NCBI RefSeq assembly: GCF_030408355.1
Contig: NZ_CP046606.1
Span: forward strand, 186,001-250,000
Direction of reading: 5' to 3'
Length of the DNA: 64,000 nt
Origin: Corynebacterium afermentans subsp. afermentans
GTDB lineage: Bacteria > Actinomycetota > Actinomycetes > Mycobacteriales > Mycobacteriaceae
Shown: positions 1,699 to 63,252 of the stretch, piece by piece
Position numbering within the stretch: the first letter of the stretch is position 1
How the letters are laid out: every line of letters starts with the position of its first letter
Made by a program: the position numbers and the translations under genes
The notes under the pieces: model-generated
The model's input: only the letters and a program-made list of their open reading frames with translations
Database searches by the model: none
Told to the model about the DNA's origin: nothing

Positions 1699-2940
1699 TT
1701 ACGGCTCGGCTACCTCGTACAGGGGCTGATCCAGCCTGGTGTTGGAGCGCACCTTCAGCCCGCCGATGGAGTATTCGTACTGCTGTTGTTGCGGGGCAGG
1801 CGCTGGCGCAGGTGCAGGAGCGGGGGCGGGGGCTGGCGCAGGCTCGGGTGCCGGGGCTGGCGCGGGAGCGGGGGCGGGTGCCTGCTGACGCGGCGCCGGC
1901 GCGGGTGCCGGGGCAGGCGCGGGCGCACGCTGCACCGGGGCTTGCTGTGGCTGCGGGGCAGGCGCGGGCTGCTGGACCTCCACCACCGGCTCCGGGGCCT
2001 TCTCCGGCAGCGCGGTGCTGAACTGAGAGGTCGACTCCGAAGGTTCGGTGGGCTCGGTGGGCTCAGTGGTCGCCGTTGGCTCAGTTGACTCGGTAGAGCT
2101 GCTCGGCTCCGAGACCTCCGTGGTTTCCCGGTACGCCGAGGTGGAGTCGCGCTGCATGCTCGACGGTGAGCTCATCACCACGGTGCCGATGCCAGCCAGC
2201 ACGAGCGCCACGACCGTCGCGGCGATCAGCGGGCCGCGGACCGTGCTCGGCTCGCGCGTGGCGTCCGTCGGGGACTCCTCGGTGTCCGCCGCCAGAGCCG
2301 CGGCTTCCGCGTCCACGGTGGCGAAGAAGTTCGTGCCCGGGTGCGCTACCTCCACCTCGCGCACGACTGGCGGAAGCGGGGAGATAGAGATGTCGTCGCC
2401 TTCGATCGGGCCTGCGATGACGGCTAGTGAGGTGCCGCCTACCACCGCGGTGGTGTAGCCGCGCGCCACCGCGATAAGCCCGCGGTCTTCTAAACGCCGC
2501 AGCGTTGGGGTCAGCGCCTCGCCGGCGGCCGGGTCCAGCTCGCCGACAATGTCGCCGTCGACGCACAGCTCGATGTCGCCGGCATCGTCGAAACCCATCG
2601 ACACCAGCACCTGCGCCGGCGCCTCCACCGGCAGCTCTTCGTGCAGTTCAGCCACGTAGCGCTCGCCAGCGGGCAGCAGTGCCCAAGGCTCGCGCGGCGG
2701 GGTGTTCACTGGCAGCACCTGACCCGCTGGCGGCAGTACAACCGCACCGCCGTCGGTGGCCACCACCGGGGTCACGCCAGCCGCGGCCAGCTGGGCCAGC
2801 TCCGCGTCCTCCACCGAGCCGACGACTTCACCGTCCACCACTACGTCGAGGTCCGGGGTGAGGGTGGCCGAAGGGGCGTCGATAGGCAAACGCTCCACGG
2901 GGAGGCGACGGGTGCCCGCAGGCACCTCGTACATAGCCAT
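1699..2940 (-). CDS. Single-pass membrane protein with Pro/Ala-rich extracytoplasmic tail
   Basis: 413 residues, not assigned to a characterised family. Residues 1-210 are an acidic cytoplasmic domain with two short internal echoes (VVDGEVVGS and CVDGDIVGE, each followed by a helix and a beta strand). One membrane segment follows at about 243-262 (ATVVALVLAGIGTVV). The outside part is Ser/Thr-rich, then a long run of PAPAPAP-type repeats, ending in a short domain around YEYSIGGLKVRSNTRLDQP. This layout suggests a wall-spanning stalk. The ATG at 2940 is preferred over the GTG at 2943 because GGGAGG sits 7 nt upstream of it. The gene lies between leuA and the DnaQ-like gene, all on the minus strand. 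Confidence 0.7.
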   Translation of the reverse strand: MAMYEVPAGTRRLPVERLPIDAPSATLTPDLDVVVDGEVVGSVEDAELAQLAAAGVTPVVATDGGAVVLPPAGQVLPVNTPPREPWALLPAGERYVAELHEELPVEAPAQVLVSMGFDDAGDIELCVDGDIVGELDPAAGEALTPTLRRLEDRGLIAVARGYTTAVVGGTSLAVIAGPIEGDDISISPLPPVVREVEVAHPGTNFFATVDAEAAALAADTEESPTDATREPSTVRGPLIAATVVALVLAGIGTVVMSSPSSMQRDSTSAYRETTEVSEPSSSTESTEPTATTEPTEPTEPSESTSQFSTALPEKAPEPVVEVQQPAPAPQPQQAPVQRAPAPAPAPAPAPRQQAPAPAPAPAPAPEPAPAPAPAPAPAPAPAPQQQQYEYSIGGLKVRSNTRLDQPLYEVAEP

Positions 2941-2996
2941 CACGCAACCTCCCGCTGAAATGTGTGGTCAAGTCACGCAAGTATAGCGCGCGGGGG

Positions 2997-4988: not shown

Positions 4989-5840
4989 TCATCGGATGGA
5001 TACGCGTGTAAGCATCGCGGCGGAGACGAGCATTACGCCTATCGACGTCCCAACGGCCGCCCACCCGGCAGCCGAATCAACACGGAAAGATTCGCCGAGC
5101 AAAAACACGCCCAGGGAAAACGCGACGAGCGGCTCGATGATCTTCGACGCCGGAAGCGAGGTGGCCAGGTTGCCCGCGGCGAACGCGTATTGCTGCACGA
5201 CCGTGCCGGCCGTGGCCGCCAGCAGCATGGCCCACAGCTGCCACGTGGCCAGCAGGCCGGGCACGCCGCCGTGGACGAAGCCGTCGACCGCCACTTTGGA
5301 AAACACGGCCTGGTAGCCGTACATGGCGCCGCAGGCTGAGCCGAAGATGAGGGCTTTGGAGGCCGGAGGACGTCGAGAAGCAATGGCGTAGGAGGCCGCG
5401 ATGATCGCGACCGCGGTGCCCACGACAACACCCCACTCCCAGGTGGCGGGGTCGCGCTCGCCGGGCAGCGGGCGGCCGAGTACGACCACCCCGCCCACAC
5501 TCGCGGTCAGCAGCACCGCCCAAAACGCCTCCGCGGTGTGCATGTGGCGCTTGTCCGCCCACGCCGAAAACAGCAACGTGAGCATCAAAGACAGCGCCAG
5601 GATCGGCTGCACCACCAGCAGGGACCCGAATGCCAGCGCCGCCGCCTGGAAGCCGTACGCCACAAACGCGATGCCCATCGACGCCCACCACGCCGGGCGC
5701 TTGATGGACTGCATGGGGGAGTCGTTGTTCTCCCCCTCCGAGGCGCCCGCGCGCATGATGCGGTGGCGCCACACGGTCCCCGCCGCCATGGTCGCGGCCG
5801 AGATCAGCGCGAACGCGACGGCGAGAAAATTGTTGTGCAC
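4989..5840 (-). CDS. DMT-superfamily (EamA-like) membrane transporter
   Basis: 283 residues with about nine to ten hydrophobic segments spread over the whole length, typical of drug/metabolite permeases of the EamA or DUF-type DMT family. The substrate is unknown. Cytoplasmic loops are short and basic, and the C-terminus ends MLTRVSIR. The start is taken at the GTG at 5840 (VHNNFLAVAFALISAA). A TAATAT -10 box lies 8 nt upstream and there is no Shine-Dalgarno sequence, so the transcript is probably leaderless. The gene is divergent from lysC and convergent with no neighbour. Upstream in-frame codons fall inside antisense lysC and are not used. Confidence 0.78.
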   Translation of the reverse strand: MHNNFLAVAFALISAATMAAGTVWRHRIMRAGASEGENNDSPMQSIKRPAWWASMGIAFVAYGFQAAALAFGSLLVVQPILALSLMLTLLFSAWADKRHMHTAEAFWAVLLTASVGGVVVLGRPLPGERDPATWEWGVVVGTAVAIIAASYAIASRRPPASKALIFGSACGAMYGYQAVFSKVAVDGFVHGGVPGLLATWQLWAMLLAATAGTVVQQYAFAAGNLATSLPASKIIEPLVAFSLGVFLLGESFRVDSAAGWAAVGTSIGVMLVSAAMLTRVSIR

Positions 5841-7196: not shown

Positions 7197-8234
<1,038 letters not shown>

Positions 8235-9880: not shown

Positions 9881-10429
9881 CTACTTGGGCTGGATTTCGC
9901 TTTCGACGACCCACTTGTGCCGCTTCATGGTCATTTCCGGCGAATCGATGTCCACCATGTAGACCGTCTCGTCGGTAGCGGAGTCGATGGTCGCCTCCGC
10001 GCCCTGCATGCCGGACATGTGCTCGGCGGTGATCGTGGCCGTGTCGCCCGCGCCAAGCTTCTCGCTGCCAACACCGTCGAGCTCTTCCTGCACGACCCAC
10101 TTGTGGTTGGTCACCGGGTCGCCGCCGTCCGTGGGGGTGTAGGACACGGCGTAGGCGGTGGTGTCGAAGGCGCCGGAGATGGTTGCGGTGGCGCCGTCCA
10201 TGCCGGGCATGTGGTCGGCGGTGAGCGTGACTTCGGTGCCCACGGGGTAGGTCGGGTCGGCCGCCTCGGCGATGCCGGTCGGGGCAGGCCCGCCGTCCGC
10301 CGGGTGGTCGTGCCCACCGTGGTCAGCGTGCTCTGCGGGGGCGTCGTCGCTTTCCGACGCACACCCAGCCACCGACAGAGCCGTCACCGCCGCAAGGGTG
10401 GTCAGTGCAATTGATCGAAAGATACGCAT
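9881..10429 (-). CDS. Lipoprotein with two DUF1541 (YdhK-like) domains
   Basis: 182 residues. A lipoprotein signal peptide ends in the lipobox VAGC at residues 20-23. A His-rich linker (HADHGGHDHPADGG) follows, then two homologous halves of about 58 residues. Each half has a T-x-T-A-(D/E)-HM-x-GM core and ends in HKWVV. The conserved HMPGM/HMSGM motifs and His-rich linker suggest metal, perhaps copper, binding; this is inference. The gene sits downstream of sigC on the same strand and may belong to the SigC response. DUF1541 proteins have no established function that I know of. Confidence 0.82.
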   Translation of the reverse strand: MRIFRSIALTTLAAVTALSVAGCASESDDAPAEHADHGGHDHPADGGPAPTGIAEAADPTYPVGTEVTLTADHMPGMDGATATISGAFDTTAYAVSYTPTDGGDPVTNHKWVVQEELDGVGSEKLGAGDTATITAEHMSGMQGAEATIDSATDETVYMVDIDSPEMTMKRHKWVVESEIQPK

Positions 10430-10453: not shown

Positions 10454-10993
10454 CTAGTTACTCCCGGCAACCAGATCCCGTCGGGCGCGGGCCACCCGGG
10501 AGCGGATGGTGCCGACGCGCACGCCTGCGATGCGGGCTGCTTCTTCGTAGGTGTAGCCCATCACCTGCGTCAGGACTAGGGCTTCGCGGCGTTCGGGCGG
10601 CAGCTCGTCGAGAAGCGAGCGTGCGTCGATGACGTCGCCCCAGGTGTTGGGGTTGTCGGGGCTGGGGTTGGCGGCGGCGACATCTTCGTACTCGGTCGCG
10701 GATTTGCGGGGCCGGGCCATGTCGTGGCGCACGGAGTCCACCCAGGCGCGGCGCGCCAGCGACAGGATCCAGGTGCGGGCGGTGGAGCGGGCTTGGAAGC
10801 GCGGCAGGGAGCCGAGCACGCGCAGGTACGTCTCCTGTGTGAGGTCGTCGGCGTGTTGGGGTCCGGCGAGGTGGGCAAGGAGGCGCCACACGTCGTTTTG
10901 GGTGAGCCGGATGAATTCGGTGAGCGCGTGTTTGTCGCCACGGCCGGCGCGCAGTGCCAGGTCCGTGACGTACGCGTCGTCGCTAGTGCTCAC
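10454..10993 (-). CDS. sigC: ECF-type RNA polymerase sigma factor, SigC-like
   Basis: 179 residues with only regions 2 and 4 of sigma-70. Region 2 includes DDLTQETYLRVLGSLPRF and the RTWILSLARRAWVD stretch; region 4 includes YEEAARIAGVRVGTIRSRVARARRDL, a helix-turn-helix. Size and position near asd match C. glutamicum SigC, reported to control the quinol oxidase branch. No anti-sigma factor gene is adjacent. The start is GTG at 10993, and no Shine-Dalgarno sequence is evident. A TAACGT or TAATGA box just upstream may give a leaderless transcript, although readthrough from mrpG, 12 bp upstream, is also possible. Confidence 0.85.
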   Translation of the reverse strand: MSTSDDAYVTDLALRAGRGDKHALTEFIRLTQNDVWRLLAHLAGPQHADDLTQETYLRVLGSLPRFQARSTARTWILSLARRAWVDSVRHDMARPRKSATEYEDVAAANPSPDNPNTWGDVIDARSLLDELPPERREALVLTQVMGYTYEEAARIAGVRVGTIRSRVARARRDLVAGSN

Positions 10994-11613: not shown

Positions 11614-12051
11614 CTACACCATCCTTTCGGCCGGCGTCACGTGGTCGTCGTGGTGGTCTGGGCCGTGGTCGACGTAGGGTTCCCAGGCCACGGTTTTCGG
11701 GTCGATGGGGCTTTTGCTTAGCGACGGCCGAAGGTGCTCCTCCATATCCACCAACCCTGCGATGACCTCTTCCGGGTCGGAGCCGAACGCCGCCTGCACT
11801 AGCAGGGTGAGCGGACCGTTGTCGGTGACGGGGTGGCGCAGCCCCATGGATAAGGTGCCCGGGGTTGCGGTGATGGAGGTGGAAAACCAGAACACGTCCC
11901 AGTCGGTGTTTATGCGCAGTGGGTAGTAGATGACGATGGGGTCGAATTTCGTGGCCGGGTTGAACGCTTTGGCAACGGCGTCGAAGCCGGCCACGAAGAT
12001 CTCTTTAGCAATCCAGATGGCGTATCCCACGCCGTGGAAGAAGCCTCGCAT
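11614..12051 (-). CDS. mrpE: Mrp-type Na+/H+ antiporter subunit E
   Basis: 145 residues. The MnhE family core is visible: an N-terminal membrane segment (VGYAIWIAKEIFVAGFDA), then the FDPIVIYYPLR, TATPGTLSMGL and LLVQAAFGSDPEEV stretches. The C-terminus is hydrophilic and His/Asp-rich (DHGPDHHDDH). The start codon overlaps the mrpD stop by one base. Confidence 0.9.
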   Translation of the reverse strand: MRGFFHGVGYAIWIAKEIFVAGFDAVAKAFNPATKFDPIVIYYPLRINTDWDVFWFSTSITATPGTLSMGLRHPVTDNGPLTLLVQAAFGSDPEEVIAGLVDMEEHLRPSLSKSPIDPKTVAWEPYVDHGPDHHDDHVTPAERMV

Positions 12052-29543: not shown

Positions 29544-29569
29544 ACGCCTCACGCTTATCGACGCCACGT

Positions 29570-31974: not shown

Positions 31975-31975
31975 T

Positions 31976-32025
<50 letters not shown>

Positions 32026-32312
32026 TGGAACTGCCGGAGTGTGTCGTCTACCTCGTAGTTCACGTTTGTTCGGGGCTCTCTTGCGTGTCTCGTTTGTCTC
32101 GTATCGTCACCCTGGGTGAGAAACGGGTGACAAGAATGTGCCATGAGACGGGCACGAAAGAAGCGAAGAAATCAGTCCACGTTGGACCTTGTGAGCATCC
32201 GGTCGGTCAGTTAAGTGCCCCGCGATGAGCTCGTCGCAGCATGCACGTTGACATCGAGCAAGAAGTTACTCAGTCATCCAGAACGCTTTCACCTTCTTAG
32301 GTTGATCCATGC

Positions 32313-33798: not shown

Positions 33799-33817
33799 GT
33801 GACAAACAAAGCACAAA

Positions 33818-33868
33818 AGAAACGGGCCGAATCACTGCATTTGAAGTAAATGCAGGTCATCGACCCGT
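33818..33868 (-). terminator. Terminator of the intact tRNA-Pro
   Basis: A two-part stem: outer ACGGG...CCCGT and inner CTGCATTT...AAATGCAG with a 5-nt loop. It is followed on the minus strand by TTTCTTTTG. It differs from the terminator at 30500-30523, as expected if this tRNA 3' half and terminator came with the island. Confidence 0.7.
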
Positions 33869-46733: not shown

Positions 46734-46784
46734 GAAAAAATTTTACCCATTGTTTCCGGGTTGTCGCGGTTGCACGCTACCGCC

Positions 46785-50208: not shown

Positions 50209-50221
50209 AAGGAGTTTTCCC

Positions 50222-50443
50222 ATGCACCATCTCAATTCTGCACTCGTATCTGTCCACCTCTATGCTGTGTCTCGCGCCCAGAAAATGCGCTCTGACCAGG
50301 GCATGTCCACCATCGAATATGCGTTCGGTTCGCTGGCGGCCGCGGCCCTCGCCGGCGTGCTGTACCTCGTGGTCAACGGCGACGCTGTCACAGGCGCCAT
50401 CGAAAGCGTCATCACCGACGCGCTGAGCAACACGCCGGGCTAA
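50222..50443 (+). CDS. Flp-like pilin, DUF4244 family
   Basis: 73 residues. A 28-residue basic leader ends in G, then MSTIEYAFGSLAAAALAGVLYLVV: the class III prepilin cleavage site (G|MSTIEY, with Glu at +5) and hydrophobic pilin helix. It is the probable major pilin subunit of the Tad system. AAGGAG stands 7 nt upstream. It overlaps the next gene by one base. No prepilin peptidase gene is in the window. Confidence 0.87.
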   Translation: MHHLNSALVSVHLYAVSRAQKMRSDQGMSTIEYAFGSLAAAALAGVLYLVVNGDAVTGAIESVITDALSNTPG

Positions 50444-50712
50444 TGAGCACCATCGAAACCGCGCTGTCGCTGTCGGCTCTCGTGGTGGCCACCGCCGCGA
50501 TCGTGGGCGGGATCGCCACCGTTGCCGCCTACATCACGGCCGTGGACATCGCCGGTGCCGCTGCCCGCGCCCACGCCCTGGGGGTGGACTACGCAGTACC
50601 CCGCGGCGAGGTCGCCGTCACCGAAAACGCGGGCCTGGCCACCGCGGCGGCCTCGGTTCCGGCGCCGATCGGCACCATGCGCGCCACGGCCGTGTTCCCC
50701 GTGGAGTTCTAG
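50443..50712 (+). CDS. TadE-like pseudopilin
   Basis: 89 residues. The N-terminus MSTIETALSLSALVVATAAI looks like the mature end of a pilin without any leader. The rest includes GGIATVAAYITAVDIAGAAARAHALG, typical of TadE-type proteins where small residues lead into an extracytoplasmic domain. It is a minor pilin candidate, overlapping the pilin gene by one base and abutting the next gene. Confidence 0.82.
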   Translation: MSTIETALSLSALVVATAAIVGGIATVAAYITAVDIAGAAARAHALGVDYAVPRGEVAVTENAGLATAAASVPAPIGTMRATAVFPVEF

Positions 50713-51027
50713 ATGCGTCTGCTTTCTAGCGACGGCTCCGCCACCGTCACCGCCACCGGCATCATCACCTCCGTGGTCTCGCTCGCGCTGGCGGTGGTGG
50801 CGTTCGGGGTGCACGTGTCTGACACGCACCGGGCCCGCGTCGCCGCGGACCTCGCCGCGGTGGCCGGGGCGACCGCGATGTACCGCGGCGCCGACGCCTG
50901 CGCCAGCGCCGATCGCACCGCGCAGCTCAACGGCGCGCGCGTGGTGTCCTGCGAGGTCACCGCAGGCGACGTCGTGGTGGCAGCCACCCGCCGCCGGGCG
51001 GAGGCCGCCGCCCGCGCCGGGCCGTAA
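50713..51027 (+). CDS. Rv3654c-type TadE-like pilus protein
   Basis: 104 residues: a short N-terminus, one helix (IITSVVSLALAVVAFGVHVSDTH), then RARVAADLAAVAGATAMYRGADAC, the hallmark of 'helicase/secretion neighbourhood TadE-like' proteins. Two Cys residues (DACAS, VVSCEV) probably form a disulfide. It is last in the tad operon and faces the convergent helicase gene, as in mycobacteria. Confidence 0.85.
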   Translation: MRLLSSDGSATVTATGIITSVVSLALAVVAFGVHVSDTHRARVAADLAAVAGATAMYRGADACASADRTAQLNGARVVSCEVTAGDVVVAATRRRAEAAARAGP

Positions 51028-51039: not shown

Positions 51040-53391
51040 CTAGCGCGGTGCCCCGCCCGCCGTCATGGTCACAAGCGCGCCGAGCAGCTTTAACGCGGCG
51101 CGCTTGTCCAGCGGCTGGTTGCCGTTGCCGCACTTCGGCGACTGCACGCACGACGGGCAGCCGTCCTCGCAGCCGCAGGAGCGCACGGTCTCCCAGGTCG
51201 CCTCGATCCACTCGTGGAAGCGGGCGAAGCCCTCGTCGGCGAAGCCCGCTCCACCGGGGTGGCCGTCGTAGACAAAGACGGTGGGCAGCATCGTGTCTGG
51301 GTGCAGCGCGGTGGACACGCCGCCGATGTCCCAGCGGTCGCACGTGGCTAAAAGCGGCAAAAGCCCGATCGCGGCGTGCTCGGCGGCGTGCAGGGCGCCG
51401 GGGATCTCGCCGGCGGTGATGCCCAGCTCGTCCAGCACCAGCGGGTCGATCGTGTACGCCACCGCCCGGGTGACCAGGCGCTGCTCGGGCAGGTCGAGGG
51501 GGATGTGCTCGCTGACGGTGCCGTCTGAAAGCCGCACCACATACCCGGTGACGCGGTCGATGACCTCCACGTCCACGCTGGCCACCCACAGCCCCGGCGA
51601 CGGGTTGACCAGCTCGTGGGGCTTGCCCAGGATCGTGATATCCGTGGTCGAGCGCGCCTGCGTGGAATAGTCCGGCCGCTCCGGCGCCACCAGCGCGACG
51701 TAGTCGTCCAGGTCCAGCGCTTGGACCACGAAGTACTCGCCCTGGTGGATGTAGACCGCCCCGTCGTGCACCTGGCTCATCGCGCGCGCCGCATCCACGG
51801 TGCCGAGCAGGCGTCCGTCGGTGACGTCCACGATCATCACCTGCTCACCAACCCCGCCACGCAACGACACCGAGGCGTGCGCCGACTCCGGCGTGACCTC
51901 CCCGTCCAGCTGCGGCACCGCGAACCAGCCGGCCGGCCGGCGGCGCAAAAGGCCCGCGGCGGTCAGGTCATCCACCACGTCGCGCGCGCCGAACGCCCCC
52001 ACGTCGGCCTCACTCAACGGCCGCTCCACCGCCGCGCAGTACACGTGCCCGCGCAGAATGAACGGGTTGGTGGGGTCGAACACGGAGTTTTCCACCGGCG
52101 TGCCCAACAGCGCGTCGGGGTGGTGGACCAGGTAGGTGTCCATCGGCTCGTCGCGGGCCACCAGCACCGCCACCGAGCTTTGCCCGCGCCGGCCCGCGCG
52201 CCCGGCCTGTTGCCGAAACGACGCCACCGTGCCCGGAAACCCCGCCATCACCACCGCGTCCAGCCCGCCGACGTCGATGCCCAGCTCCAGCGCGTTCGTG
52301 GACGCCACCCCCAGCAGCTCACCGGAGTCCAAGCGGCGCTCCAGCTCGCGGCGGTCCTCCGCCAGATACCCCGCCCGGTAGGGTGCGACGCGCTCGGCCA
52401 CATCCGCCCGGCCCGCCGCCGACAGGTGCTCCTGGGTGCGCATCGCCACCGTTTCCGCGGCGCGCCGGGACCGCACGAACGTCAGCGTCCGCGCGCCTTG
52501 CAGCAGCAGCTCCGCGGACACCGAAGCGGCCTCCGTGGTGGCGGGGTAGCGTACCGGCGCGCCACCTTCGCCTTCCGCCCCTTCGATGAAGCCGGGCTCC
52601 CACAACACGATGGTGCGCTCGCCAGCCGGGGCGGCGTCGTCGGTTACGGCCACCGCTTCGCGGCCGCTTAACCGGCGAGCCTGGCCCGCCGGGTCCGCCG
52701 CGGTGGCTGACGCGTAGATCAGCGTCGGCGACGCACCGTAGGCGGCCGCGATGCGCAGCAGTCGCCGTAGCACCAGCGCCACATTCGCGCCGAAAACACC
52801 CCGGTAGGTGTGGCACTCGTCCACCACCACGTACTTCAAATGCCGCAGCACCCGCGCCCACCGCGCGTGCGAGCCCAGCACAGACGCGTGCAGCATGTCC
52901 GGGTTGGTGAACACGTAGCGCGTGTGCTCCCTAATGCCCGCGCGCGACTCTGCGGGCGTGTCGCCGTCGTAAGGCGCCGGGTGGATGCCCTCCAGCCCCG
53001 CGGCCTGCACCATCCGCAGCGTGGCCTGCAGCTGGTCCGAACCCAGCGCCTTCGTCGGCGTTAAATACACCGCGCACGCCGTCGGATCCTGCGCCAACGT
53101 GGTCAGCACCGGCAGCTGGTAGCCCAAAGACTTGCCGGAAGACGTCCCCGTCGCCACCACCACATCGTCTCCGCGCCAGGCGTGTTCTGCGCACTGGGCT
53201 TGGTGGAGGTAGGGGGAGGCGAAGCCTTCGTCGATAAGCAATTGCTGCAAACGCGGCTCCACCCACCCCGGCCATTCGCTGTACCGGGCGTGCCGTGCGG
53301 GAACGTGCTCGACATGCGTGATCGTCGCCGCGGGGTGGCGGCGCTTCAGCGCGCCGAGCAGCTCGGCACCGAACGGGGAAACCATAATCAC
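51040..53391 (-). CDS. DEAD/DEAH-box helicase with C-terminal Zn-binding DUF1998-like domain
   Basis: 783 residues. The Walker A is ATGTSSGKSLGYQLP near residue 85 and the DEAH-type box is VVDECHTYRGVFG. Motif VI is QQAGRAGRRGQSSVAVLVA. The C-terminal CGCEDGCPSCVQSPKCG binds metal as in MrfA/YprA-type repair helicases. It is the actinobacterial helicase found beside tad clusters (Rv3649 type); a role in DNA repair is inferred from MrfA. The start is the GTG at 53391 or the ATG at 53385; CATACT stands just upstream. Confidence 0.9.
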   Translation of the reverse strand: MIMVSPFGAELLGALKRRHPAATITHVEHVPARHARYSEWPGWVEPRLQQLLIDEGFASPYLHQAQCAEHAWRGDDVVVATGTSSGKSLGYQLPVLTTLAQDPTACAVYLTPTKALGSDQLQATLRMVQAAGLEGIHPAPYDGDTPAESRAGIREHTRYVFTNPDMLHASVLGSHARWARVLRHLKYVVVDECHTYRGVFGANVALVLRRLLRIAAAYGASPTLIYASATAADPAGQARRLSGREAVAVTDDAAPAGERTIVLWEPGFIEGAEGEGGAPVRYPATTEAASVSAELLLQGARTLTFVRSRRAAETVAMRTQEHLSAAGRADVAERVAPYRAGYLAEDRRELERRLDSGELLGVASTNALELGIDVGGLDAVVMAGFPGTVASFRQQAGRAGRRGQSSVAVLVARDEPMDTYLVHHPDALLGTPVENSVFDPTNPFILRGHVYCAAVERPLSEADVGAFGARDVVDDLTAAGLLRRRPAGWFAVPQLDGEVTPESAHASVSLRGGVGEQVMIVDVTDGRLLGTVDAARAMSQVHDGAVYIHQGEYFVVQALDLDDYVALVAPERPDYSTQARSTTDITILGKPHELVNPSPGLWVASVDVEVIDRVTGYVVRLSDGTVSEHIPLDLPEQRLVTRAVAYTIDPLVLDELGITAGEIPGALHAAEHAAIGLLPLLATCDRWDIGGVSTALHPDTMLPTVFVYDGHPGGAGFADEGFARFHEWIEATWETVRSCGCEDGCPSCVQSPKCGNGNQPLDKRAALKLLGALVTMTAGGAPR

Positions 53392-53770: not shown

Positions 53771-53788
53771 GCACTCATTGCTTATCGA

Positions 53789-53816
53789 CGGGGCTTCGCT
53801 CGAAGCCCCGTTTTTT
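53789..53816. terminator. Bidirectional terminator of cspA and the DedA gene
   Basis: A perfect 10-bp stem, CGGGGCTTCG with CGAAGCCCCG, then six T residues. The first base overlaps an 11-mer repeat copy (53780-53790). Confidence 0.92.
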
Positions 53817-54577: not shown

Positions 54578-57460
54578 GTGGCTGAAGGCGGCAAGACTCT
54601 GGTGATCGTGGAGTCCGCGACGAAGGCGAAGAAGATCCAGAAGTACCTGGGCGACGACTTTATTGTGGAAGCCTCCGTCGGCCACATCCGTGACCTGCCC
54701 GGCCGCGCCGCCGACATCCCCGCCAAGTACAAGAAGGAGGCGTGGGCGAAGCTCGGCGTCAACCCCGAGGACGGCTTCACGCCCATCTACGTCGTCTCCG
54801 CGGACAAGAAAAAGAAGGTCACCGACCTCAAATCCAAGCTCAAGCAGGCCGACAAACTCCTGCTCGCGACAGACCCGGACCGCGAAGGCGAAGCCATTGC
54901 CTGGCACCTGTTGGAAACCCTCAAGCCCAAGGTGCCGGTGGAGCGCATGGTGTTCAACGAGATCACCGAATCCGCGATCCGCGAAGCCGCCGAAAACACC
55001 CGCGAGCTGGACATGGCGCTCGTCGACGCCCAGGAGACCCGCCGCATCCTCGACCGCCTCTACGGCTACGAAGTCTCGCCCGTGTTGTGGAAGAAGGTCA
55101 TGCCGCGCCTGTCCGCCGGGCGCGTGCAGTCCGTGGCCACCCGCGTCATCGTCGAGCGTGAACGCGAACGCATGGCGTTCATCCCCGCCGAGTACTGGGA
55201 CTTGGTTGCGTCTCTCGTCCCTCAAGACGCATCCAAGCAGACCCCGACGGAGTTCGACGCCAAGCTCGTCGCCCTCGACGGCAAGCGCATCGCCCAGGGC
55301 CGCGACTTCGACGACCGGGGGCGGCTGAAGGGCGAGGCGGTGATCGTCGATAAGCAAAAGGCGCACTCGCTTGCCGACGCGCTGGGCACCGCACCCATGC
55401 ACGTCACCGCAGTGGAGGAAAAGCCCTACTCGCGCAAACCCTACGCGCCGTTTATGACCTCCACGCTGCAGCAAGAAGCCGGGCGCAAACTGCACTTCAC
55501 CTCCGCGCGCACCATGCGCATCGCGCAACGGCTGTACGAAAACGGCCACATCACCTACATGCGTACAGACTCGACCTCCCTGTCCAAACAGGGCCTCGAC
55601 GCCGCCCGTTCCGCCGCCCGCGAACTGTACGGCGCCGATTACGTCACCGATGCGCCGCGCACCTACGACCGAAAAGTGAAAAACTCGCAGGAAGCCCACG
55701 AAGCCATCCGCCCCGCCGGCGAACGCTTCGCCACCCCCGGGCAACTGGCGGGGTCCTTGGACGCCGAGGAGTTCAAGCTCTACGAACTCATCTGGGCGCG
55801 CACCGTCGCCTCCCAAATGCAAGACGCCCGCGGCACCTCGATGAAGGTCACCGTCGCCGGCGATGCCTCCGGCGAGGCGTGCGAGTTCGCCGCCACCGGC
55901 CGCACCGTCACCTTCCCCGGCTGGCTGCGCGCCTACTCCGACCGCCAAGCCAACGAAACCCGCCTGCCGCAGCTGGCCAAGGGCGACGAGTTGGCCACGC
56001 AGAAGGTCACCGCGGATGGCCACTCCACCAACCCGCCGGCGCGCTACACCGAAGCCTCGCTGGTGAAAAAGATGGAGGAGCTCGGCATCGGGCGCCCGTC
56101 CACCTACGCGTCGATCATCAAAACCATCCAGGACCGCGGCTACGTCTTCGTCCGCGGCAACGCGCTGGTGCCGTCCTGGGTCGCGTTCTCCGTGGTGGGC
56201 CTGCTGGAGAACAACTTCGACGCGCTGGTGGACTACGACTTCACCTCGTCCATGGAGGACGAGCTCGACGAAATCGCTCACGGCAACCAGGACCGCACCA
56301 AGTGGCTGTCCGGCTTCTATTTCGGCGACGCCGACGCACGCGAATCCATGGCGCAAGCACTCGCGCGCCGCGGCGGGCTGAAGCACATGATCGAGAACAA
56401 CCTCGAGGCCATCGACGCGCGCGCCGCGAACTCGCTGAAGCTTTTCGACGACGCCTCCGGCCGCCCCGTCGTCGTCCGCGTCGGACGCTACGGGCCCTAC
56501 ATCGAGCGCGTGATCGGCGAAAAGGACGGCGAGCCCGAGTACCAGCGCGCCAACCTGCCCGAGTCCGCCACCCCGGACGAAATCACCCTGGAGATGGCTG
56601 AAAAGCTCTTCGCCACCCCGCAGTCCGGCCGCGAACTCGGCGTCAACCCCGCCAACGGCCGCACCGTGGTGGCGAAGGAGGGCCGCTTCGGCCCGTACGT
56701 CACGGAGCTCGTGCGTGACGACGAGCGCGCCACCGCCGAAGCCCGCGCCGAGGAAGTCATCGCCGCGGAGCGCGCCGAGGAGGACGCCCAGCGCGCCGAG
56801 GAAGGCAAACGCGCGAAGAACTGGGAGACCAAGACGGCGGCTGCTCAGAAGGAGAAGCGCATGGCGCAGCTCGTCGACGAGCAGCTCAAGCCCGCCACCG
56901 CGTCACTGTTTTCCACGATGGAGCCGTCGAGCGTCACCTTCGACGAGGCGATGCAGCTGCTGTCGCTGCCGCGCGAGGTCGGCGAGGACCCGTCGGACGG
57001 CGAGATGATCACCGCGCAGAACGGCCGCTACGGCCCGTACCTGAAGAAGGGCTCCGATTCGCGCTCGCTGGCCAGCGAAGACCAGATCTTCTCCATCACG
57101 CTTGACGAGGCCCGCCGCATCTACGCCGAGCCGAAGCGCCGCGGGCGCGCTGCCGCGAAGCCGCCGCTGAAAATGCTCGGCGACAACGACGTCTCCGGCA
57201 AGCCCATGACCGTCAAGGACGGCCGCTTCGGCCCGTATGTCACCGACGGCGAAACGAACGCGTCCCTGCAGCGCGGCGACACCCCGGAAACCATGACGGA
57301 CCAGCGCGCCAACGAGCTGCTCTCCGCCCGCCGCGCCCGCGAGGCGGAAGGCGGCGGCAAGAAAGCCACCAAGAAGAAGACGACGAAGAAGAAGGCTGCC
57401 AAGAAGGCCGCGAAGCCGAAGCAGACCACGAAGCGCGTAGTGAAGGCCCGCAAGCGCTAA
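54578..57460 (+). CDS. topA: DNA topoisomerase I
   Basis: 960 residues. The TOPRIM domain has TLVIVESATKAKKI and TDPDREGEAIAWH, and the catalytic Tyr is in HITYMRTDSTSLS. After residue 600 come several topoisomerase C-terminal repeats (GRFGPYVT, GRYGPYLKKG, GRFGPYVTDG) and a Lys-rich tail (KKATKKKTTKKKAAKKAA). It lacks the zinc fingers of E. coli TopA, as in other actinobacteria. The GTG at 54578 has GCGAGG 11 nt upstream; a GTG at 54566 is an alternative. Confidence 0.96.
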   Translation: MAEGGKTLVIVESATKAKKIQKYLGDDFIVEASVGHIRDLPGRAADIPAKYKKEAWAKLGVNPEDGFTPIYVVSADKKKKVTDLKSKLKQADKLLLATDPDREGEAIAWHLLETLKPKVPVERMVFNEITESAIREAAENTRELDMALVDAQETRRILDRLYGYEVSPVLWKKVMPRLSAGRVQSVATRVIVERERERMAFIPAEYWDLVASLVPQDASKQTPTEFDAKLVALDGKRIAQGRDFDDRGRLKGEAVIVDKQKAHSLADALGTAPMHVTAVEEKPYSRKPYAPFMTSTLQQEAGRKLHFTSARTMRIAQRLYENGHITYMRTDSTSLSKQGLDAARSAARELYGADYVTDAPRTYDRKVKNSQEAHEAIRPAGERFATPGQLAGSLDAEEFKLYELIWARTVASQMQDARGTSMKVTVAGDASGEACEFAATGRTVTFPGWLRAYSDRQANETRLPQLAKGDELATQKVTADGHSTNPPARYTEASLVKKMEELGIGRPSTYASIIKTIQDRGYVFVRGNALVPSWVAFSVVGLLENNFDALVDYDFTSSMEDELDEIAHGNQDRTKWLSGFYFGDADARESMAQALARRGGLKHMIENNLEAIDARAANSLKLFDDASGRPVVVRVGRYGPYIERVIGEKDGEPEYQRANLPESATPDEITLEMAEKLFATPQSGRELGVNPANGRTVVAKEGRFGPYVTELVRDDERATAEARAEEVIAAERAEEDAQRAEEGKRAKNWETKTAAAQKEKRMAQLVDEQLKPATASLFSTMEPSSVTFDEAMQLLSLPREVGEDPSDGEMITAQNGRYGPYLKKGSDSRSLASEDQIFSITLDEARRIYAEPKRRGRAAAKPPLKMLGDNDVSGKPMTVKDGRFGPYVTDGETNASLQRGDTPETMTDQRANELLSARRAREAEGGGKKATKKKTTKKKAAKKAAKPKQTTKRVVKARKR

Positions 57461-58710: not shown

Positions 58711-60234
58711 CTACGAGCGGTCGGCCAATGTGGAGCGCACCGGGCGCGCCAGCTGCGTCATCTTGCCGCGGCCGCGCAGCTCCACGGACTTCATCAGCGT
58801 CCAGCGCTGCTGCTCCACCTCGTTCGCTGCGCGCAGGGTCGCGGCGTTGGTCAGCACCAGGCCCGGGGTGTCTTTCGCCATGTCGGTCAGGCGCGCCGCG
58901 GCGTTGACGGCGTCGCCGATCACGGTGTACTCGAAGCGGTCCGAGCCGCCGATGTGGCCCGCCACCACGTGCCCGGACGCCACACCGATGCCGGCGCGCA
59001 GCTCCTGGCCGGCCAGGTCCCGTTGGAGTTCGCGGGCGGCTTGGAGGGCGTGCGATGCGGCGTCGTGAAGCGAAACGGGCGCCCCGAACACCGCCAAGGC
59101 CGCATCGCCCTGGAACTTGTTAATCACGCCCTTGTTGCGGTGCACCACCTCGACGACGACGTCGAAGAAGTCGTTCAACGCCGCGACGACCTCCTCCGGG
59201 GTGTGGTCCACGGCGTAGGTGGTGGACCCGACGACGTCGATGAACAGCACCGCCACCTTGCGCTCCTCGCCGCCGAGCTCCGGGATCTCCTCCAGCGCCT
59301 TCTGCGCCACCTCCGCGCCGACGTACTGGCCGAAGATGTCGCGGACGCGCTGGCGGTCGCGCAGCCCCTTCATCATCTCGTTGAACCCTGCCTGCAGCAC
59401 GCCGATCTCGGAACCGTCGTAGATGTCCACCTGCGTGTTTTGCTCGCCTCGGCGCACACGGTTGATCGCGGCTTGCAGCTCCTTGATCGGGTCGACCACG
59501 CTCATGATCACCAGCGTGGTGCCCACAAACCCGGTGGCCATGCCGGCGGTGATCAGCGCGACGATAGCGGAGGTGAGCTCGCCCACGTTGCCGGTGAAGT
59601 AGCCGTGGCGCTGCGCCACCGTCAGCAACAAAACGCCCACCATCGGCACGGCGGAGGTGGTGAACCACGTCAGGTACAGCTGCCACTTGATCGGCGGCTG
59701 CAGCGTGGAGTCCTCGAAGCGGCGCGCCAGCGCGGAGGCGGCGATGGGGCGCACGAGGCGCTCGGCCTGCAGGTAGGTCAGCACCGCGGTGACAAAAGCG
59801 GTCAGCGAGGCGGTGGCGAGGACGACGGTGGCCAGGCGGGCGTCGACACGCCAGGCCCCCGCGGTGACAATCGCGATGCCGATACCCCACACGCCCACCA
59901 CAATGATGGTTTGCAGCACCGGCAGCCGCATGACCAGGTGGCGCACCATGTTCGGGTCATGCCCGTCGGGGTGGCGCTGCCATTCCAGCACGGGCCGGAA
60001 CAGGTACAGCGTGACCACCACGCCCAGCACGACGGCGACCGCCGCGTAGATCACGCCGATGGCGCCGAGTTGCCCGCCAAGGCCGAGTTCACGCACTTCC
60101 GGCATGGGGATGAGGTAGCGCACGAACAGCATCGAGCCGATGGCGGCGATGACGTTGGTTCCCAGCACGGTCGCGGCGTACAGGGGCCATGACGTGCCCC
60201 AGAGCCACCGCAGATCGCGCCAGAATCGTTCCAT
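58711..60234 (-). CDS. cyaB: Class III adenylate cyclase, membrane-bound with HAMP domain
   Basis: 507 residues. About six membrane helices (1-240) are followed by a HAMP linker (MSVVDPIKELQAAINRVRRG) and a class III cyclase domain (about 325-490). Its metal motif is AVLFIDVVGSTTY and it also has NKFQGDAALAVFGAP. It makes cAMP, the ligand of GlxR encoded at 39945-40628. It matches the position of C. glutamicum cyaB downstream of topA. TAAGGT 8 nt before the ATG suggests a leaderless transcript. Divergent from holB. Confidence 0.93.
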   Translation of the reverse strand: MERFWRDLRWLWGTSWPLYAATVLGTNVIAAIGSMLFVRYLIPMPEVRELGLGGQLGAIGVIYAAVAVVLGVVVTLYLFRPVLEWQRHPDGHDPNMVRHLVMRLPVLQTIIVVGVWGIGIAIVTAGAWRVDARLATVVLATASLTAFVTAVLTYLQAERLVRPIAASALARRFEDSTLQPPIKWQLYLTWFTTSAVPMVGVLLLTVAQRHGYFTGNVGELTSAIVALITAGMATGFVGTTLVIMSVVDPIKELQAAINRVRRGEQNTQVDIYDGSEIGVLQAGFNEMMKGLRDRQRVRDIFGQYVGAEVAQKALEEIPELGGEERKVAVLFIDVVGSTTYAVDHTPEEVVAALNDFFDVVVEVVHRNKGVINKFQGDAALAVFGAPVSLHDAASHALQAARELQRDLAGQELRAGIGVASGHVVAGHIGGSDRFEYTVIGDAVNAAARLTDMAKDTPGLVLTNAATLRAANEVEQQRWTLMKSVELRGRGKMTQLARPVRSTLADRS

Positions 60235-60271: not shown

Positions 60272-61471
60272 GTGACTACCCGTAGCGTCAGTGAGCGGCT
60301 TGCCGGTACGCCGGCGGTGCGCGAGGCAATCATGTCGGCGGCGAAGGCCGCAAGGCTTGGCGACGGCTACGCCATGACCCACGCCTGGCTTTTCACCGGT
60401 CCTCCGGGGGCGGGCCGCTCGCAGGCCGCGTTGGCGTTCGCGGCGGCGCTGATGTGCACCGACCCGGACGAGATCGGGTGCGGGCGCTGCGAGGCGTGCC
60501 GGTTGGCGTTGGCGGGCACGCACACTGATCTGCTGCACGTGGTGCCGCAGCGGGTGAACATCCCGGTGGATTACGTGCGGCGCACGATCGTGCCGCAAGC
60601 AGCCCGCCTGCCGACGGTCGCCGCCTGGCGCGTCATCGTCATCGAAAACGCCGACCGGTTGAACACGGACGCCGCCGACGCGTTGCTGAAGACCGTGGAG
60701 GAGCCGCCGGAGCACACCGTGATCATCATGTGCGCCCCGTCGGCGGACCCGCAGGACTTTTCGCAGACGCTGCGTTCGCGCTGCCGCCACCTGTACGTGC
60801 CGGCGCCGACGGAGCACGAGGTCGTGCGCATCCTGGTCGAAGAGGAGGGCGCGACCGAGCACGACGCGCGCCTTGCCGCCGCCGCGACGATGCGGCACGT
60901 GGGGCGTGCGCGGCTTTTGGTGCGCTCGGACCAGGTGCAGAAGCGCCGCTCCATGGCGATCAACCTGGCAGAGCTGGTGTTCCACGGTGCGCAGGCGTTC
61001 CAGGCCGTCGGCGGGCTGGTCAAAGCGGCGGAAACCGAGGCGGTGGAGGCCCACAAGGCCGAGGACGAAGCCGAGCGCGCGAAGCTGGAAAACGCGCTCG
61101 GCATGGGCGCGAAAGGCAAGGGGGCGGGCAGGGCGTTGGGTGGCGTTGCGTCGTCGATAAAAGCGCTCGAAGAGGAGCAGAAGAAACGCGGCACCCGCCG
61201 CAAACGCGACATGTTCGACCTGGTCCTGGTGGACCTGGCGGGGGTGTACCGCGACGCCATGATCATCCAGTCCGGTGCCGGTCTTGCCCTGATCCACCCG
61301 GACTACGAGGGCCTGGCGCGAGAGATCGCGGAGCGCACCACCCCAGAAGACCTGGTGGAGTGCCAGGAGGCCATCGCGCAATGCCGCGAGCGGCTGGCGC
61401 AGCAGGTGCAGCCGGCGGTGGCGTTTGGTGGGATGCTCGGCCGGATCCGGCTCGCCTGCAAGGTGTCCTGA
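60272..61471 (+). CDS. holB: DNA polymerase III subunit delta'
   Basis: 399 residues of the clamp loader. The P-loop region is WLFTGPPGAGRSQAALAFAAAL, and the zinc site is CTDPDEIGCGRCEAC. Sensor motifs VIVIENADRLNTDAADALLKTVEEPP follow. The C-terminal part is long and charged. The GTG at 60272 stands 8 nt after TAGTGT without a ribosome-binding site, so probably leaderless. Confidence 0.95.
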   Translation: MTTRSVSERLAGTPAVREAIMSAAKAARLGDGYAMTHAWLFTGPPGAGRSQAALAFAAALMCTDPDEIGCGRCEACRLALAGTHTDLLHVVPQRVNIPVDYVRRTIVPQAARLPTVAAWRVIVIENADRLNTDAADALLKTVEEPPEHTVIIMCAPSADPQDFSQTLRSRCRHLYVPAPTEHEVVRILVEEEGATEHDARLAAAATMRHVGRARLLVRSDQVQKRRSMAINLAELVFHGAQAFQAVGGLVKAAETEAVEAHKAEDEAERAKLENALGMGAKGKGAGRALGGVASSIKALEEEQKKRGTRRKRDMFDLVLVDLAGVYRDAMIIQSGAGLALIHPDYEGLAREIAERTTPEDLVECQEAIAQCRERLAQQVQPAVAFGGMLGRIRLACKVS

Positions 61472-61536: not shown

Positions 61537-61609
61537 GCCACTATAGCTCAGTCGGTAGAGCATCTCACTCGTAATGAGAAGGTCGCGAGTTCGATTCTCG
61601 CTGGTGGCT
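61537..61609 (+). tRNA. tRNA-Thr(CGT)
   Basis: 73 nt, CCA not encoded. The acceptor stem is GCCACTA/TGGTGGC. The anticodon stem is TCTCA/TGAGA with loop CTCGTAA, giving anticodon CGT. The T arm has GTTCGATTC. A run of seven T residues follows and probably ends transcription. The last base overlaps the stop of the convergent acyl-CoA synthetase gene. Confidence 0.95.
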
Positions 61610-63252
61610 CAATTTTTTTGCCCTAAACCGGGAAGAAACCGCGGCACGACCTTGCCAACAGCGTTGCGCGGCAGCTCGTCCACGAAGTACACGTCCCGGG
61701 GGATGGAGTGGTCGGCCAGGTGGGCGCGCACCCAGTCGCGCACCGCATCGGCGGTGAGGTCGGCGCTTTTTACCACCCACACGGCGATGCGTTTGAACAT
61801 ATCGTCGTCGTCGACGCCGTGCGCGTACACCTCGCCGACTCCCGGCATGTCCTCGAGCACTTCCACCACGGATTGCGGGTGGACGTTTTCGCCGCCGACG
61901 ATGATCATGTCGTCGTTGCGTGACTGCACGTGCAGGTACCCTCGGTCGTCGAGGTAGCCGAGGTCGCCCATTTCCACCAGGCCGTCGATCTCCACCATCT
62001 CGGTCGCCGGGTTGGTGTAGCCGCGCAGCGCGGTTTCGTTGTGCAGGAAGATGCGGCCGGTTTCGCCGGTTTGGACTTCGTTGCCGTGGTCGTCGTAAAG
62101 CTTGAGCACCGTGCCGGGCGGGATTTTGCCCACAGTGGTGGGGTCGGCCTGCATCTGTTCGGGCGAGGCGGCCGCGGCGAGTGCGAGTTCGGTGGAGCCG
62201 TAGATGTTGGCCAGAATCGGGCCGAAGCGCTCGGTGGTGCGGCGCAGCAGCGACGGGGTGACGGCGTTGCCGGCGGAGGCGAGGTAGCGCAGCGTGGACG
62301 TGTCGTAGCTTTCCTCCAGGTCCAGCATCTGTTTGAAGAAGATGGGTGAGGAAATCAGCCCGTCGCAGCGGTATTTCTGGATGTCGCGGAAGCAGGCCTC
62401 CGGATCGAAGATGCGGCGGGTGACGATGGTGGAGCGCGTCGCCAGCGCCACCTGGAGGGCGGACCAGCCCCAGGTGTGGAAGATCGACGCGGTTAGTTGC
62501 ACGGTGTCGCCGGCGCGCCACGGGATGGCTTCGAGGTAGCCGGCGACCACGAACGGCATGCGCGGTTCGGGCCGCACGATGCCTTTGGGGATGCCGGTGG
62601 TGCCGGAGCTCATCAGGACAAGGTTGCCGTGTTGCGGCCAGCGGGGCAGTTGCCTATCGACGTCCATCCGGACCACCTGCCCAATAGAGAGCCCGGCGCC
62701 GCCGTCCTCGTGCGCGCGCACGATGGTGATGCCGGCGGTGTTGGCAGTGTTGGCAGTGTCGGCGGGGAGGCGGTCGGCGAACTCGTCGTCGATGAACAGC
62801 ACGTTGATGTCATTTTCGGCGAAGATGCCCGCGAGCTGCTCCGGCGAGGAGCCGATGTTGAGCAGGAAGATGTGTGCCCCGACGTAGCCTTTGGCGGCTA
62901 GCGGGAGGATGATGCCGCGGCCGTTTCGGGCCATGACGCCTATGCGCAGCTCGTCCAGGCCGCGTTTTTCCTGCACGTCGAGGAGCCACTTGGCTAGGGT
63001 GCGTGAGTCGTCGCGGAGTTGGCGGTAGGTGGTCACGCCCGTGTCGTCGATAAGCGCGATGCGGTCCGGTGCGGCGGCGGCGCCCTGTTCGACTTCGCGG
63101 GCGGTGGTGAACCAGTAGCGCGCGAGGTTGGGGGTGAGTGCGAGGGCCGCGCGGGGGCCGCCTTCGGCGCTGACGATGCCGGCGCGTGTAACGGCGGGCA
63201 CGAAGCGGGCGAAAGACTTGAGTAAGAACAGCGGACGGTGAGTGGGTCGCAT
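61609..63252 (-). CDS. Acyl-CoA synthetase (AMP-forming, FadD-type)
   Basis: 547 residues of the adenylate-forming family. The P-loop is LMSSGTTGIPKG, then NIYGSTELA. Adenylation motifs A8/A10 are seen as GDLGYLDDRGYLHVQSRNDDMIIVGG and RNAVGKVVP with the catalytic Lys. It probably activates fatty acids. The ATG at 63252 (MRPTHRPLFL) is exactly 6 nt after TACATT, so leaderless. TTATCCACA overlaps this promoter. Earlier in-frame codons lie upstream of the -10 and are rejected. Confidence 0.9.
   Translation of the reverse strand: MRPTHRPLFLLKSFARFVPAVTRAGIVSAEGGPRAALALTPNLARYWFTTAREVEQGAAAAPDRIALIDDTGVTTYRQLRDDSRTLAKWLLDVQEKRGLDELRIGVMARNGRGIILPLAAKGYVGAHIFLLNIGSSPEQLAGIFAENDINVLFIDDEFADRLPADTANTANTAGITIVRAHEDGGAGLSIGQVVRMDVDRQLPRWPQHGNLVLMSSGTTGIPKGIVRPEPRMPFVVAGYLEAIPWRAGDTVQLTASIFHTWGWSALQVALATRSTIVTRRIFDPEACFRDIQKYRCDGLISSPIFFKQMLDLEESYDTSTLRYLASAGNAVTPSLLRRTTERFGPILANIYGSTELALAAAASPEQMQADPTTVGKIPPGTVLKLYDDHGNEVQTGETGRIFLHNETALRGYTNPATEMVEIDGLVEMGDLGYLDDRGYLHVQSRNDDMIIVGGENVHPQSVVEVLEDMPGVGEVYAHGVDDDDMFKRIAVWVVKSADLTADAVRDWVRAHLADHSIPRDVYFVDELPRNAVGKVVPRFLPGLGQKN

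Follow-up and report, generated by a model that had tools for sequence, protein, structure and literature searches.

What is the role of a short DNA word that recurs along a bacterial chromosome far more often than expected? The question is raised by a stretch of 64,000 nt from Corynebacterium afermentans subsp. afermentans (NZ_CP046606.1, positions 186,001-250,000), hereafter the window, to which all site coordinates refer. An earlier note on this DNA had listed 15 copies of the 11-mer CGTCGATARGC. All 15 were recovered at their positions, 8 on the plus and 7 on the minus strand, whereas 0.05 are expected (dinucleotide shuffles; maximum 1 in 100), that is well below one copy, as the note had estimated. 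We find that the 11-mer belongs to a polar element of about 50 bp, carried in two dialects by most of the Corynebacterium genomes sampled. The element is probably a DNA uptake (self-recognition) sequence, serving a proposed transformation system made of ComEA/ComEC and a Tad/Flp pilus.

The whole genome (G000; 2,375,453 bp, one contig) contains 439 copies of CGTCGATARGC, 237 forward and 202 reverse. The control, which is the same pattern read backwards (reversed), gives 1 and 0. CGTCGATARGC is only the commonest spelling of a looser core, CGTCG-NN-AAGC, with ..ATAGGC and ..ATACGC also found. This working core, CGTCGNNAAGC, has 1,194 copies genome-wide against 89 reversed. Spellings were counted in 464 kb of the genome (the window and 20 stretches of 20 kb). 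They include CGTCGATAAGC (71 copies), CGTCGAGAAGC (41), CGTCGATAGGC (34), CGTCGACAAGC (19), CGTCGATACGC (18) and CGTCGCAAAGC (17). The last five are each expected about 0.4-1.8 times, far below their counts. A 13-column position weight matrix retrieved about 430 sites in the same 464 kb (control 85), without strict convergence. A free-running matrix of 40 columns drifted into codon periodicity and was discarded.

Genes were predicted in 484 kb of the genome (424 genes) with a simple in-house predictor, which also sets the gene ends. The 109 CGTCGATARGC sites of this region divide into 60 antisense, 27 sense, 20 intergenic and 2 at gene ends. In the window, copies do lie between genes, as the earlier note had seen, but they number three of the 15 (29553, 34890 and 53780) and not two. 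Coding DNA holds 87 copies of CGTCGATARGC against 2.8 +/- 1.7 in 100 codon-preserving shuffles (maximum 7), and 221 copies of CGTCGNNAAGC against 23 +/- 4.9 in 100 synonymous-codon shuffles (maximum 38). Leu-Ile-Asp is spelled CTT-ATC-GAC in 48 of 88 tripeptides, though CTT represents 7.5% of leucine codons. Coding as an explanation of the motif, already dismissed in the earlier note, is ruled out by the codon-preserving shuffles, and the genome-wide count that the note had proposed to set against a codon-aware expectation is in clear excess. This is a short motif, over-represented genome-wide on both strands beyond coding, as are DNA uptake sequences (DUS) and uptake signal sequences (USS).

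The orientation of the sites relative to genes bears on a role at the RNA level, for instance as a processing or Rho-utilisation site. The antisense bias (60 against 27 sense) would agree with such a role. Among 33 intergenic sites, 24 are nearest a gene 3' end and 19 of these 24 are antisense to that gene, so that the transcript is C-rich there; several intergenic sites lie between a stop codon and a hairpin seen by eye. However, 56 of the 60 antisense sites share one reading phase, encoding Leu-Ile-Asp (..ATAAGC) or Pro-Ile-Asp (..ATAGGC), and the bias within genes arises because the protein tolerates this phase. Moreover, sense-oriented and divergent-intergenic sites exist, and the G-rich arm described below is also found in pooled sites outside the main antisense phase. 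An RNA-level element is thus very unlikely.

The 36 core sites of the window were tracked in up to eight relatives. They are listed here, with the copies of the earlier note marked "earlier copy".

1432..1442, plus strand, core CGTCGAGAAGC, conservation set
2877..2887, plus strand, core CGTCGATAGGC, earlier copy
5037..5047, minus strand, core CGTCGATAGGC, earlier copy
5371..5381, plus strand, core CGTCGAGAAGC, core match in 5/5 aligned relatives (3/8 unaligned)
7772..7782, plus strand, core CGTCGATAAGC, earlier copy
7844..7854, minus strand, core CGTCGACAAGC, conservation set
10349..10359, minus strand, core CGTCGGAAAGC, conservation set
10606..10616, plus strand, core CGTCGAGAAGC, conservation set
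11716..11726, minus strand, core CGTCGCTAAGC, conservation set
14916..14926, minus strand, core CGTCGCAAAGC, conservation set
17381..17391, minus strand, core CGTCGATAAGC, earlier copy
17696..17706, minus strand, core CGTCGCGAAGC, conservation set
23290..23300, minus strand, core CGTCGACAAGC, conservation set
24114..24124, plus strand, core CGTCGCCAAGC, conservation set
27368..27378, minus strand, core CGTCGAGAAGC, conservation set
29553..29563, minus strand, core CGTCGATAAGC, earlier copy; intergenic, 9 bases past a predicted stop codon and ahead of an inverted repeat seen by eye
29864..29874, plus strand, core CGTCGATAAGC, earlier copy
34890..34900, plus strand, core CGTCGATAGGC, earlier copy; intergenic, flanked by divergent predicted genes
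35264..35274, minus strand, core CGTCGATAAGC, earlier copy
39389..39399, minus strand, core CGTCGACAAGC, conservation set
41776..41786, plus strand, core CGTCGACAAGC, middle bases changed and fixed bases kept in 3/3 aligned relatives (5/8 unaligned)
43382..43392, minus strand, core CGTCGAGAAGC, conservation set
46290..46300, plus strand, core CGTCGATAAGC, earlier copy
46940..46950, minus strand, core CGTCGATAAGC, earlier copy; within the ssd-like gene
47939..47949, minus strand, core CGTCGCGAAGC, within tadA
48341..48351, plus strand, core CGTCGCCAAGC, within tadA
53229..53239, plus strand, core CGTCGATAAGC, earlier copy; core match in 7/8 relatives
53780..53790, minus strand, core CGTCGATAAGC, earlier copy; intergenic, following the stop codon of a cold-shock-like gene (named in the earlier note and by eye) and preceding a hairpin seen by eye
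55345..55355, plus strand, core CGTCGATAAGC, earlier copy; within a topA-like gene (named by eye)
55369..55379, minus strand, core CGTCGGCAAGC, within the topA-like gene
56440..56450, minus strand, core CGTCGAAAAGC, within the topA-like gene
59061..59071, plus strand, core CGTCGTGAAGC, conservation set
60355..60365, minus strand, core CGTCGCCAAGC, conservation set
62091..62101, plus strand, core CGTCGTAAAGC, conservation set
62652..62662, minus strand, core CGTCGATAGGC, earlier copy
63045..63055, plus strand, core CGTCGATAAGC, earlier copy

Two adjoining, poorly conserved stretches at 30551-33867, with lower G+C (0.58 and 0.53), contain zero core sites and are possibly acquired DNA.

Within genes, identity at the fixed positions of the core exceeds the codon-phase expectation in the relatives G049 (0.947 against 0.855), G016 (0.966 against 0.791) and G189 (0.932 against 0.778). 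In five genomes of more distant relationship it also exceeds expectation, the smallest margin being that of G118 (0.733 against 0.720). The two middle bases of the core drift and the other bases are kept, as at site 41776; this is the positional conservation in close relatives that the earlier note had suggested looking for. Many core sites are missing or unaligned in some relatives; therefore, core sites turn over. Sites 24114, 62091, 62652 and 63045 are aligned in no relative, the last three being outside the fetched stretches. The core is maintained by selection on the DNA itself.

The element extends well beyond the core. On the core strand, it consists of a G-rich and C-poor arm, the core, AA and a C-rich tail. 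After codon-phase correction, the arm runs from about -32 to -2, AA is at +11/+12, a G at +15, and the C-rich tail reaches +19. The core itself is C[G/A]TCGNNAAGC, placed after ~30 bp of G-rich/C-poor DNA. This arrangement is observed in 162 sites of the main antisense phase and also in 126 other sites, with somewhat weaker values at many positions. At -32..-9, the G-over-C skew is +0.35 in the genome studied (253 sites), +0.25 in other genomes with the CG dialect (429 sites) and +0.29 in those with the CA dialect (141 sites), the two dialects differing at the second base of the core. Lower values are found in G026 (+0.09), G048 (+0.11) and G099 (+0.14). Chance matches in motif-less genomes give -0.03 (6 sites) and -0.07 (14 sites). 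CGTCG matches in CA genomes give +0.20, from three sites only, too few to judge. The strand skew is about zero at -60..-35 and at +25..+48, and so no larger repeat is apparent; the position-wise deviation is likewise concentrated in -35..+19. A longer conserved repeat, such as a miniature inverted-repeat transposable element or a repetitive extragenic palindrome, is not seen by these measures, hairpins not having been specifically tested. The DNA-level selection proposed in the earlier note is borne out by the excess over codon shuffles, the conservation at orthologous sites, the two dialects and this polar arm outside the 11-mer.

How the sites are arranged on the chromosome was derived from 484 kb, with the ..ATAGGC spelling added to the core. 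The mean gap is 1.6 kb with a coefficient of variation of 0.87, more even than random, and 22 of 267 gaps are shorter than 200 bp against 31 expected. GC skew places the origin near the start of the contig and the terminus at ~1.35 Mb. Summed counts give 133 sites on the leading and 156 on the lagging strand, without leading-strand excess. Strong replichore polarity, as in the FtsK-orienting polar sequences (KOPS), is not seen in these counts. Nor is the confinement to terminus or origin typical of matS or parS, with sites in the window and in all 21 sampled stretches at 3.0-8.0 per 10 kb.

These data also bear on the idea of an artefact of restriction-modification, replication strand or repeats, in which the motif would be a methylase site, a KOPS/matS/parS-like signal or the remnant of a mobile repeat. 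A short and widely dispersed motif would be in keeping with it. Yet restriction sites tend to be avoided rather than enriched in genomes, strand and regional bias are absent, the flanks show neither skew nor a larger repeat, and orthologous sites are conserved with drifting middle bases. Such an origin is extremely unlikely.

The arm brings to mind a Chi-like signal, in which a helicase-nuclease (AdnAB or RecB-like) would read the single-stranded core during resection, the G-rich 5' arm favouring RecA loading. What makes it the strongest named rival is the G-rich arm, which lies 5' of the core on the same strand, where RecA would load after Chi according to the usual mechanism. A passage of PMC3763553 reports a preference of RecA for TGG repeats. 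In our arm, however, G is enriched and T not clearly so, the T-over-A skew being 0.10 in the genome studied, 0.05 in other CG genomes and 0.01 in CA genomes. Proteins with a PDDEXK_1 domain are present in 75 of 75 genomes, some with open reading frames (ORFs) of 1,000-1,240 amino acids. They may include AdnAB, and the family occurs equally in motif-less genomes. The leading-strand skew of known Chi sites is lacking here. Even with the low density in phages reported below, which would fit, a Chi-like role is distinctly unlikely.

How widely is the element distributed? We counted it in 201 genomes of the genus, namely G000 and 200 others drawn evenly. CGTCGATARGC alone ranges from 0 to 789 copies. 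With our own thresholds (at least 150 copies and a 3-fold excess for the CG dialect, CGTCGNNAAGC; 150 and 5-fold for the CA dialect, CATCGNNAAGC), CGTCGNNAAGC passes in 139 genomes, CATCGNNAAGC in 18 and both in 5. The motif is therefore carried by 152 of the 201 genomes (134 CG-only, 13 CA-only, 5 both). The CG-only genomes have a median of 1,100 copies against 65 for the control, with a forward fraction of 0.49996. G143, a CA-positive genome, clearly carries both dialects (352 and 1,337 copies). The positive status of G073, G084 and G200 comes from modest counts, and weak enrichment is visible in several negatives (e.g. G041, G062, G120, G129, G132, G160, G194).

Trees of TopA and of a neighbouring helicase were built for 20 of the 201 genomes: 5 CG-only, 7 of the 18 CA-positive and 8 motif-less. 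Later trees added a named Corynebacterium record (L151), which groups with G026 inside the genus, and four Nocardia and Mycobacterium outgroups. Several deep lineages carry the CG dialect, among them the one that branches first in the helicase tree. The seven CA-positive genomes, which include G143, group together, with the motif-less G014 among them. Motif-less genomes separate at least four times: G039 (with G164 and G099), G163, a clade of G030/G128/G148/G033, G152 and G014. In the helicase tree G163, a long branch, joins the G030/G128/G148/G033 clade, and some deep branches are weakly supported. Within this set of trees, dialects are congruent with phylogeny, as in DUS and USS. Most likely, the ancestor carried the CG signal, a single change to CA followed, and the motif was lost several times.

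K-mer screens for other dialects in motif-less G014, G030, G066, G152, G163, G039 and G133 gave none that was clear. GTCGNNGAGC is weakly enriched in G133 (43 against 13; L105-L109) and G039 (43 against 12; L101-L104), and CGTCGNNAATC occurs 10 times against 0.7 in G048 (L058-L062). Both may be further dialects or reflect codon bias. In G053 (stretches L063-L067), the screen is dominated by ~36 copies of a repeat (ATCCCCGCTGG..) resembling clustered regularly interspaced short palindromic repeats (CRISPR).

Outside the genus, a family sample of 201 genomes comprised 16 of this genus and 185 from 30 sister genera. A 3-fold excess of CRTCGNNAAGC is absent from all 185, the maximum being 2.7-fold (G304, 449 against 168) and several others reaching about 2-fold. 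A C. urealyticum metagenome assembly is close to the control (108 against 78). On mobile DNA, six corynephages, four of them related, have 14 matches in 381,687 bp (control 6), where ~197 would occur at the density of the chromosome studied (1,225 matches in 2,375,453 bp), that is ~14-fold fewer. Eleven plasmids have 30 matches in 531,457 bp (control 15) where ~274 would occur, ~9-fold fewer. All 14 matches of the corynephages (records W01-W06) are on the forward strand and 0 on the reverse.

The plasmids matter for another explanation, in which the element would be bound chromosome-wide by an architectural or nucleoid-associated protein that most Corynebacterium possess and that has disappeared from several lineages. 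Even spacing on both strands along the whole chromosome would suit such a protein, as would a polar 50-bp element conserved at orthologous sites. On the other side, we know of no architectural or nucleoid protein with a polar 50-bp site, and the 11 plasmids, where the element is sparse, need packing too. Furthermore, a one-base switch at ~1,000 sites would be easier by a drive from biased import than by selection site by site. We regard this explanation as unlikely.

We put forward an uptake sequence as the probable role, because abundance, strand balance, dialects (double in some genomes), genus restriction, sparseness on mobile DNA, even spacing and the arm match uptake sequences better than other known classes. 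Among the roles that the earlier note had listed, the uptake-like one likewise fits best, by analogy. Transformation in Corynebacterium is what we infer here. A surface or periplasmic receptor, perhaps a Tad/Flp pseudopilin, would bind the element on free DNA. The pilus would then pull the tagged DNA across the mycomembrane, and ComEA and ComEC would pass one strand inward. Recombination of preferentially imported DNA would multiply and maintain the element by molecular drive. A different receptor would account for the G-to-A dialect switch at the second base, and in motif-less lineages either the specificity of the receptor or transformation itself would be gone. Corynebacterium is surrounded by an outer mycomembrane; the uptake sequences that are well known come from outer-membrane bacteria.

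Candidate machinery is encoded in the window itself, by a Tad/Flp pilus locus at 46761-51027 whose tadA gene has two core copies. Its genes are:

46761..47801, plus strand, ssd-like gene at the head of the locus, assigned by position and tblastn; uptake machinery by proposal
47802..48923, plus strand, tadA, type II/IV secretion ATPase of 373 amino acids (PF00437, 176.8 bits)
48920..49663, plus strand, tadB-like inner-membrane platform (PF00482)
49660..50208, plus strand, tadC-like inner-membrane platform (PF00482 on a longer same-frame ORF, 49357-50208)
50222..50443, plus strand, Flp-like pilin gene, a short ORF with a tblastn match in 20/20 other genomes
50443..50712, plus strand, TadE-like pseudopilin gene, tblastn match in 13/20 other genomes
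50713..51027, plus strand, TadF-like pseudopilin gene, tblastn match in 16/20 other genomes

The Ssd-like name of the first gene is putative, and the Flp-like, TadE-like and TadF-like names are presumed from position. ComEA (HHH_3, with a sub-threshold SLBB match) adjoins ComEC (PF03772) outside the window (L090). Both are present in 21 of 21 genomes, as are TadA, TadB, TadC and Flp in a set of 21 that shares 13 genomes with the first, including the one studied. A passage of PMC6667448 on another actinobacterium, Micrococcus luteus, calls tadA1, tadA2 and comEA competence-related.

Several genes were considered as separators of the motif classes and rejected. ComEC is found in 71 of 71 genomes, ComEA in 21 of 21 and PDDEXK_1 in 75 of 75. 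HHH_3 is found in 201 of 201 and is uninformative, its best match in the genome studied being a different protein of 768 amino acids. TadA presence was also rejected, an orthologous Tad locus being present in 20 of 20 further genomes. Seven motif-positive genomes without a strong TadA match were all retained in the counts: the assemblies of G075, G092, G113 and G119, which are fragmented or incomplete, contain no match, G101 and G112 have two matches and G021 only a weaker one. A contig scan with generic ATPase motifs kept 80 loci, of which 2 were from Corynebacterium. TadA identity to the TadA of the window is 43-48% in motif-less G030, G033, G066, G128 and G148 and 48% in G163, against 56-72% in positives. 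The difference is smaller for TopA, at 68-74% in four of the first five genomes (the stretch of G066 contains no TopA match) and 72-79% in the positives. Motif-less G014, G039 and G152 are inside the positive range (62, 56 and 58%). The role of the pilus may have changed in one clade, which is not a general rule.

Some ORF lengths were also noted. ComEC ORFs (L246-L265, L090) have 672-754 amino acids in motif-less G030, G128, G033, G148, G066, G147 and G015, and 822 in G039. They have 419-554 in 10 of 11 motif-positive genomes, the exceptions being G164 (672, positive) and G014 and G163 (568, motif-less). In G114, where the motif is present in many copies, the ComEC match is split in two (C13:122007-122782). 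TadA ORFs of 764 amino acids (G039, L122) and 831 (G163, L124), from motif-less genomes, are about twice the usual length.

Several points count against an uptake role. Motif-less genomes retain ComEC, ComEA and an orthologous Tad locus; therefore, the presence of the machinery does not explain the distribution of the motif, and comparison of these loci revealed no gene loss correlated with motif absence. An early correlation with TadA (Fisher p 3e-18, without phylogenetic correction) arose because the 'weak' match class reflected divergence of an orthologue. By tblastn, TadE was undetected in 7 of 20 and TadF in 4 of 20 other genomes, in both motif classes, TadE being missed in the positive G099. 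Alignment of the receptor candidates Flp, TadE and TadF showed no clear residues linked to dialect or motif. Inverted pairs of the Neisseria terminator type are not enriched (3 gaps below 50 bp against 8.2 expected). In the first 60 kb of the window, density is only modestly higher in conserved DNA (25 sites in the 41.5 kb aligned in at least 4 of 6 relatives, 7 in the other 18.5 kb). The sparseness in phages and plasmids was measured against this one chromosome, and their hosts may not all be motif-positive. Among the open-access literature matches listed, neither natural transformation nor an uptake sequence is the subject of any paper on Corynebacterium. Most features of the element would also suit a Chi-like or architectural site. 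The literature matches contain no description of the motif itself, and the 13 papers among them that include pieces of its letters appear unrelated by title; in the part of PMC5217627 considered, the subject is CRISPR-related motif pairs in Corynebacterium.

Weighing these points, we lean slightly towards a natural transformation system in Corynebacterium that would combine a Tad/Flp pilus with ComEA/ComEC and a receptor for a polar 50-bp tag, with at least two dialects bounding species. To our knowledge, no uptake-sequence system has so far been described in an actinobacterium and none has been linked to a Tad pilus, so that this one would be new on both counts. If so, most species of a large industrial, skin and clinical genus would be naturally transformable or recently so. 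A species tag would shape gene flow, and self-recognizing uptake would extend to mycomembrane bacteria. Should the role be another one, a genus-wide, polar 50-bp element with two dialects and ~1,000 copies would still be a new chromosomal signal needing a protein. Either reading can be tested directly, thanks to the dialects and the repeated absences.

How does the element compare with known chromosomal signals? Chi sites (RecBCD/AddAB) are polar, G-rich on one strand and leading-strand-skewed. The element shares with them polarity, G-richness on one strand and frequency in the host. Unlike Chi, it has no leading-strand excess, is longer and bipartite, and has dialects inside one genus. HIP1 of cyanobacteria is a palindromic octamer. 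It is also iterated genome-wide and lineage-restricted, and is not known to have a particular role, whereas the Corynebacterium element is non-palindromic and extended.

The Pasteurellaceae USS has a 9-bp core, AAGTGCGGT, with flanking AT tracts. Both signals have a polar core with a flanking arm and occur about once per 1-2 kb. The sequences are unrelated, and the Corynebacterium arm is G-rich and upstream whereas the USS arm is AT-rich. The Neisseriaceae DUS (10-12 bp; receptor ComP) resembles the element in its distribution: small genomes carry it in hundreds to thousands of copies, on either strand, within coding DNA and close to terminators, and its several dialects follow phylogeny. In contrast to the DUS, the element is unrelated in sequence, has a bipartite core with two free bases and a long G-rich arm, and is not enriched in close pairs. 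The pilus locus is here of Tad/Flp type, and alignment of Flp, TadE and TadF pointed to no ComP-like receptor. As given in a passage of PMC7811141, the full USS is 31 bp long, and Haemophilus influenzae has 1,465 USS cores and Neisseria meningitidis 1,892 DUS. The 1,194 copies of CGTCGNNAAGC are of the same order. A portion of an integrative and conjugative element study (PMC7371117) describes the use of DUS distribution to identify integrative elements. Finally, the double dialect of G143 resembles that of Simonsiella muelleri, for which two DUS dialects in one genome are mentioned in a passage of PMC3630211.

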